A stretch of DNA of 33,820 nt from Nitrospirota bacterium (lineage in GTDB: Bacteria > Nitrospirota > Thermodesulfovibrionia > Thermodesulfovibrionales > Dissulfurispiraceae), in contig JAMCVZ010000050.1 of NCBI GenBank assembly GCA_023476565.1, forward strand, positions 1 to 33,820, in the 5' to 3' direction. Shown here in pieces: positions 3,276 through 22,210 of the stretch. How positions within the stretch are numbered: position 1 is the stretch's first letter; the number at the start of each line of letters is the position of its first letter. The position numbers and the translations under genes were made by a program. Below the pieces are notes generated by a model. It searched no databases. It worked only from the letters and a program-made list of their open reading frames with translations, and was not told the DNA's origin.

Positions 3276-3320
3276 CTTTTTTGTAGAATGGCTTCTGTCA
3301 AGGGTTTGAGGCCGATTCTC

Positions 3321-3538
3321 TCGACCGAAAGGGGTATATGAATTCGACCGAAAGGGGTATATTCTCTCGACCGAAAGGGGTATATGAATTCGACTGAAAA
3401 GGGTATTCTCTCGACCGAAAGGGGTATATGAATTCGACTGAAAAGGGTATTCTCTCGACCGAAAGTGACATTGAATTCGACTGAAAAGGGTATATTCTCT
3501 CGACCGAAAGTGACATTGAATTCGACCGGAAAAGGAAA
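3321..3538. repeat. Iteron array, probable replication origin
   Basis: About ten directly repeated units with the core TCGACCGAAAGGGGTAT or the variants TCGACTGAAAAGGGTAT and TCGACCGAAAGTGACAT start at 3321, 3344, 3367, 3390, 3411, 3434, 3455, 3477, 3500 and 3522. Spacing is 21-23 bp, about two helical turns, so all sites face one side of the DNA. The last unit is degenerate. The flanks of units alternate mostly between CTC and GAAT before the core. Position directly upstream of a RepA-type initiator, and unit size, are classic for an iteron oriV that also autoregulates rep. A CRISPR array is excluded because there are no unique spacers. Confidence 0.88.
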
Positions 3539-21310: not shown

Positions 21311-22075
21311 TTACCTGGCTGCCATCTCAATAAGGGTCTTTGCATCCACGTACCCGCTTATAATCCTGCCGTCAGGGAAAATAATAGCGGGCGTGCCCGT
21401 GACGCCGAGTTTCCTGGCAAGCTGAATAGTGTCATCAATGGCCGTTGTCTCGCATGTGGGCTTGGGCAAAGGCTTGCCCTCAAAGGCGTCTTCGAGAAGG
21501 GCAAGGGACTTCCCGCATACGATAGCCTTTGATTTATCATACGCATCTGCGTGCATGGGCAGAGGGAATAGTTTTATATAAAAGGCGATATTTTTCCTCT
21601 CCTGGATTACCTTCTTCATCTCCTGATGAAGTTTCCCGCAGTAGGGTCAATCGGGGTCGTCGAAAACAATAACTTTGTATTGTGCGTCCCTGTCTCCCAT
21701 TACAAGGGCGTCTTTCAGGGGGATCTGAGATGCGTCAACTTTGGTAAGCTCGGCAAGCCTTTCCTGGGTAAGGTTTTTCCGCTCTTTAATATCCGCAATT
21801 GCCCCGGCGAACAGATGCTTTTTTGAATAGTCGACATACACCAGGCTCTTCTGGCCGTTGGATTCGAAATCGACCTCCCATAGTGATTCTACCGGGGCTG
21901 GCCGGACATCGATCACTTTAATGTTCGGTATTATATCCTTCAGGAGGGTCGAGGCCTCATCTTTTGTCAGGGTATGGCCTTTCGAACAACCCTGATTATT
22001 TGTCGGGAAACCGTATGAGTAGGCCGCCGGATAAAATAATACAGCGATGAGTGCAGCTAACAGTGCTTTGCGCAT
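21311..22075 (-). CDS. DsbC-like thiol-disulfide protein with selenocysteine (TGA)
   Basis: Read through an in-frame TGA (21647-21649), this is a 254-residue exported DsbC/DsbG-type disulfide isomerase or reductase. A signal peptide lies at 1-20 (MRKALLAALIAVLFYPAAYS). The N-terminal dimerisation-like domain follows. At residue 143 the motif is DDPD-U-PYC-GKLH, where relatives have DPDCPYCRKLH. The TGA thus replaces the first, nucleophilic cysteine of CxxC. After it the protein stays family-like: FPLPMHADAYDKSKAIVC, PTCETT (second cysteine pair) and the cis-proline loop GVTGTPAIIFPDG. A perfect hairpin starts 16 nt after the TGA. This is strong evidence for selenocysteine rather than a broken gene. 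The start follows GGAGGT; standard gene callers split it in two. Confidence 0.85.
21614..21649 (-). promoter_or_regulatory. Bacterial SECIS-like hairpin downstream of TGA
   Basis: In the mRNA, counting from the base after UGA, CUUCAUC (16-22) and GAUGAAG (27-33) form a perfect 7-bp stem with loop AGGA (23-26). A short GC stem CCC/GGG lies immediately after the UGA. A small apical loop with a G in its first two positions at this distance matches the general bacterial SECIS pattern recognised by SelB. Confidence 0.75.
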
Positions 22076-22210
22076 CCATCCACCTCCATAATTCATAAAT
22101 AGTAGCACAAAAAGATCGAATCCGCAAACAAATAATTTTAAAAGTCATCTTTCTTATCCCCCACCACTTATACTCTTTTAGTGTTATGATATAGTATTAC
22201 CATTCAATAT

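Follow-up and report, generated by a model that had tools for sequence, protein, structure and literature searches.

A 2026 inventory of prokaryotic selenoproteins lists 119 families, one of them called DsbG-like (NF041057) and another named as a thiol:disulfide interchange protein (PF13098, WP_011366075.1) (PMC13188914). The DsbG-like selenoprotein has been described as COG1651 (DsbG, protein-disulfide isomerase), a broad group that also takes in DsbC (PMC1088965), and the thiol:disulfide interchange family has been assigned to cd02953 (PMC2398784). DsbC and the DsbC_N domain are absent from the whole family table of the inventory and its text never mentions DsbC (PMC13188914); a literature search, in which few subscription papers were covered, returned no description of a selenocysteine (Sec) form of DsbC in Nitrospirota. 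Bacterial SECIS elements are recognised as a hairpin just downstream of the UGA with a small loop containing G (PMC1088965).

The gene described here lies in a window (the whole stretch of DNA analysed, 33,820 nucleotides) from a Nitrospirota bacterium, for which a sequence-only reading had proposed that a TGA replaces the first cysteine of the catalytic CxxC in an otherwise intact DsbC-like gene. This proposal held. The gene, which we call Sec-DsbC, starts with an ATG at 22075 and ends with a stop codon at 21313..21311 on the minus strand, giving 254 residues and a stop when the TGA is counted as a residue. The TGA (21649..21647) stands in place of the first Cys of CPYC, and when it is taken as a residue the frame is open from end to end (...VFDDPD-U-PYCGKLHQEMKK...) with Sec as residue 143 in ATG numbering, in the context DPD-U-PYC-GKLHQEMKK. 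The features of the locus are as follows.

22076..22089, minus strand: Shine-Dalgarno-like GGAGG just upstream of the ATG (sequence)
21311..22075, minus strand: Sec-DsbC gene (frame, Pfam domains and conserved residues)
22013..22075, minus strand: N-terminal hydrophobic stretch, probable signal peptide (from the sequence and an N-terminal helix in the structural model)
21764..21952, minus strand: DsbC_N dimerisation domain, PF10411, residues 42-104 (Pfam)
21326..21685, minus strand: catalytic thioredoxin-fold domain, PF13098, residues 131-250, with the C187/C208 pair and cis-Pro229 (Pfam, alignment and fold)
21647..21649, minus strand: in-frame TGA (UGA), first residue of UPYC, read as selenocysteine (frame and homologous sites)
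21638..21640, minus strand: codon of the resolving Cys146 of UPYC (frame and alignment)
21614..21631, minus strand: SECIS-type hairpin, 7-bp stem CTTCATC/GATGAAG with loop AGGA, from nucleotide 16 after the TGA (folding and comparison)

Elsewhere in the window, a 44-bp unit is repeated in tandem at positions 3315-3535 (4.9 copies with 93% matches).

Pfam recognised DsbC_N (PF10411, 44 bits) and Thioredoxin_2 (PF13098, 75 bits) in the window protein, and DsbC_N was present in 64 of 66 homologues. Conservation continues past the TGA: C146, H150, C187, C208 and P229 are invariant among the 66 aligned sequences, in agreement with the earlier claim that PYC-GKLH, a second cysteine pair and the cis-Pro are kept downstream. 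A phmmer search retrieved structure chains of DsbC at E about 5e-17. DsbC structures were also the top Foldseek matches of an AlphaFold2 monomer model (pLDDT 92.7, pTM 0.79), with a full-chain TM of about 0.5 and a large rmsd, which a different placement of the two domains would explain, and a TM of about 0.8 at 2.6 A for catalytic-domain structures of DsbC. The best NCBIfam match of the window protein is DsbC (NF008129), a model matched by all 66 aligned members, at 79.7 bits against an equivalog cut-off of 215. By its sequence the window protein is thus DsbC-like and is not called as a DsbC equivalog. It shares with DsbC (PDB 1eej, 4npb; NF008129) the DsbC_N and thioredoxin domains, the position of the CxxC, the second cysteine pair and the cis-Pro, but differs in the replacement of the catalytic Cys by Sec and in a score below the equivalog cut-off.

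The sequence-only reading had called the protein DsbC/DsbG-like, a name that can now be narrowed to DsbC-like. The DsbG-like selenoproteins of the Rcas_1661 family (NF041057; PMC13188914, PMC1088965) have a thioredoxin-like fold with UxxC as well, whereas the DsbC_N domain belongs to the Sec-DsbC family. The NF041057 model gave no match to the window protein and matched one of the 66 members, weakly (E 1.8e-4); it is a different family. The thiol:disulfide interchange family (WP_011366075.1) also combines a PF13098 thioredoxin domain with UxxC, but its assignment to cd02953, which we take to be DsbD-gamma, sets it apart, though some overlap with Sec-DsbC is possible.

An in-frame UGA at a site where homologues carry Cys is a mark of selenoproteins, and such exchange was abundant here. 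After removal of duplicates we counted 149 distinct homologous sites, 75 with TGA, 40 with TGT and 34 with TGC, that is 75 TGA against 74 Cys codons; the loci came from a peptide-pattern search of genome contigs (47 loci) and from whole-protein searches, which covered relatives and 246 genomes of the phylum. The closest named relatives of the window gene in the peptide-pattern search are Nitrospirota metagenome-assembled genomes (MAGs). The sole TGA copy filed outside the phylum comes from a Syntrophaceae MAG, UBA1163 (L056/L148), and because the tree places it with Nitrospirota sequences, it was probably transferred or mis-binned. No TGA was found among the matches listed for the class of a Geopsychrobacter MAG (146 genomes, 144 with homologues). 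Both forms can occur in one genome, as in G229 with one Sec and one Cys copy, and the window's own genome has a second DsbC paralogue with TGA and the same hairpin (L114). Immediately after this paralogue come a sensor kinase and a regulator of the NtrC type (L114:3103-6155; G000:C18), and similar kinase/regulator matches lie downstream at L048, L051, L057 and L058. Two TGA copies, L125 and L126, have Ser as the resolving residue (UPFS and UGVS).

The perfect 7-bp hairpin with loop AGGA that had been noted past the TGA was found at 21631..21614 (CTTCATC/AGGA/GATGAAG), its first nucleotide being nucleotide 16 after the TGA. Folding of the 41-nt stretch from the TGA gave -11.7 kcal/mol with a z-score of -2.3, and a 53-nt stretch a z-score of -1.2; as these single-sequence statistics are moderate, the case rests on comparison. 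When 0.93 Mb of DNA was searched for CTTCATC-N4-GATGAAG, every match on the sense strand had a TGA exactly 15 nt upstream, with the sole exception of one gene (L085) that has TGT; the remaining matches listed were the antisense of the same palindrome. All seven stem positions are paired in 74 of 75 Sec genes and in 1 of 69 Cys genes (those scoring at least 140 bits). The same holds at the level of codons, where the Leu codon in the hairpin is CTT in 75/75 Sec genes against 23/69 Cys genes and the last Lys codon is AAG in 75/75 against 30/69, while CTT makes up only 30% of the Leu codons outside the hairpin in Sec genes. The 18-nt hairpin is identical in 60 of the 75 Sec genes and the loop is NGGN in 74. 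The residues encoded by the loop vary (Q/L/R/P, E/V/A) and the stem is unchanged.

Two sister genes (L091 and L161) carry a compensatory change from U-A to C-G on both sides of the stem, at the price of a Met to Val replacement in the protein, and L189 is the lone Sec gene with a stem mismatch. Conversely, the Cys gene at L085:1954 (TGT) retains a perfect SECIS-type hairpin, as expected of a fossil left by a recent Sec-to-Cys change. Because the peptide-pattern search favours KLHQEMKK, the hairpin counts were repeated on genes from the whole-protein searches only, and of these 32 Sec genes 29 had the exact stem, two (L091 and L161) the compensatory change and one a mismatch. Since related sequences are not independent, a paired test was made on the tree; it drew 7 independent pairs from well-supported (starred) branches and again linked the hairpin to the TGA (median p 0.016). 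Comparison between genes shows a nucleotide sequence conserved beyond the needs of the protein and degraded where the codon is Cys, and once compared in this way the pairing of hairpin and TGA is far beyond chance. Homologues with TGC or TGT at the site do exist, but they are separate genes that have lost the hairpin, which supports recoding and does not refute it. With its 7-bp stem and small G-containing loop, the hairpin resembles known bacterial SECIS elements (PMC1088965) in lying right after the UGA and within the coding region, but unlike them it is nearly invariant across the family.

At least 22 Sec/Cys switches are needed on the tree, which is a quick one with many weak branches, and 7 of them are forced by well-supported (starred) branches. 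The hairpin varies so little across the family that a single origin of Sec with many later losses seems more plausible than many separate gains. With TGA and hairpin in 75 genes, nearly all from one phylum, Sec-DsbC looks like a true selenoprotein family that has apparently not been catalogued before. We consider it likely that this is an undescribed DsbC-type family in which Sec is ancestral in Nitrospirota (Thermodesulfovibrionia), with many switches to Cys and a SECIS element that stays nearly letter-identical where Sec is kept.

The selenocysteine machinery is partly recovered in the window's genome. Profiles matched selA (614 bits), selD (356 bits), which carries an in-frame TGA of its own, and selB (300 bits). 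The reading frame of the latter breaks at ten consecutive C (L067:10037-10046, minus strand; G000:C47) and continues in a second frame; this resembles a homopolymer indel, introduced by the assembly or present in the strain as a true frameshift. In this assembly (96% complete, 73 contigs) neither Rfam nor a search with the tRNA-Sec DNA of a same-genus genome, the latter run without positive control, revealed a tRNA-Sec. For Nitrospirae a selC that overlaps selB has been described (PMC8124441); around the selB of the window's genome ARAGORN and Rfam showed no tRNA. Given the completeness of the assembly, a gap is the simplest reading of the missing tRNA. Two Rfam tRNA-Sec matches in the genome at 47 bits (L001, L002; G000:C37, C70) are tRNA-Ser, so the Rfam cut-off (47 bits) taken alone overcalls tRNA-Sec in this group, and a 91-nt 'tRNA-Cys' placed by ARAGORN inside selA (L068:4455-4545) was not supported by Rfam.

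In the same genus, selB is uninterrupted (G001) and a tRNA-Sec with anticodon TCA is present. Close homologues are present in 24 relatives; the 17 genomes among them with a TGA copy all have a tRNA-Sec match of at least 65 bits, and the anticodon is TCA in all those checked with ARAGORN (L070, L071, L074, L077, L110 and L113). Two genomes without tRNA-Sec, G004 and G009, have Cys copies only; a 53.9-bit match in G004 is a tRNA-Cys. Over the 24 genomes the association of a Sec copy with tRNA-Sec is not significant by itself (Fisher p 0.076). The expected set of Sec genes is thus present in the window's genome for selA, selB and selD, with selB frameshifted and the tRNA missing, so that the case for Sec insertion in this strain rests on its relatives.

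Taken together these comparisons make it highly probable that the window carries a true selenoprotein gene belonging to the DsbC family, and Sec insertion itself appears very probable; an isomerase function would follow by analogy with DsbC. SelB with Sec-tRNA(Sec) would read the hairpin as a bacterial SECIS and insert Sec at the UGA. As in the DsbC family, the protein would then be exported to the periplasm and dimerise through DsbC_N. Sec143 would attack substrate disulfides, and either a thiol of the substrate would resolve the mixed selenosulfide, giving isomerisation, or Cys146 would do so, giving reduction. The enzyme may be kept reduced by an electron carrier in the membrane, for which a stand-alone CcdA-type protein of the genome is a candidate. 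Compared with Cys, Sec has a lower pKa and is a better nucleophile and a better leaving group, and may change the rate or the oxidant tolerance of the enzyme.

The function could differ from general disulfide isomerisation. Most homologues (117 of 143) carry a haem-c-like CxxCH motif between the signal peptide and DsbC_N, including the paralogue in the same genome (CRKCH; L114:3223-3237), and the DsbD_TM profile matches nothing in the genome but a 236-aa stand-alone CcdA-type protein. For these reasons cytochrome c maturation, or another reductase task, is a rival for the main role of the protein, one that concerns its function and leaves the selenoprotein claim as it is. We regard it as possible though rather unlikely: DsbC_N and the DsbC-like fold suggest a dimeric isomerase, and the window copy lacks the full motif (CSKGH, residues 30-34, 21974-21988, minus strand).

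There is a much slimmer chance that the UGA is read by a suppressor tRNA as Cys or another residue and not as Sec. Some Deltaproteobacteria have been reported to possess Cys tRNAs that mimic tRNA-Sec and may be opal suppressors; in the window's own assembly no tRNA-Sec is recognisable, and homologues without the TGA have Cys in its place. However, a suppressor tRNA would have no need of a hairpin, which follows the TGA almost perfectly, and it would account neither for the tRNA-Sec genes of the TGA-bearing relatives, with anticodon TCA where checked, nor for selA, selB and selD in the genome. We therefore reject it on the linkage of hairpin and TGA and on conservation, as we do, with practically no doubt, a pseudogene or sequencing error in which a Cys codon one base away became TGA and translation ends there or restarts at an ATG inside the hairpin region, from which an open reading frame was indeed listed: the comparative data refute it, with the TGA shared by 75 distinct genes, spread over many genomes, and the C-terminal half conserved, including C146, C187, C208 and P229. 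The preferred reading remains that of a Sec-containing DsbC-like protein.

For annotation, gene callers that take UGA solely as a stop would truncate all Sec-DsbC proteins at the active site. It has long been asked why some enzymes retain Sec, a rare and costly residue. If our reading is correct, these genes would form a natural series in which a periplasmic isomerase has exchanged Sec for Cys many times. Closely related copies of DsbC carry either Sec or Cys at the catalytic site, so what disulfide isomerisation gains from Sec would become directly testable.
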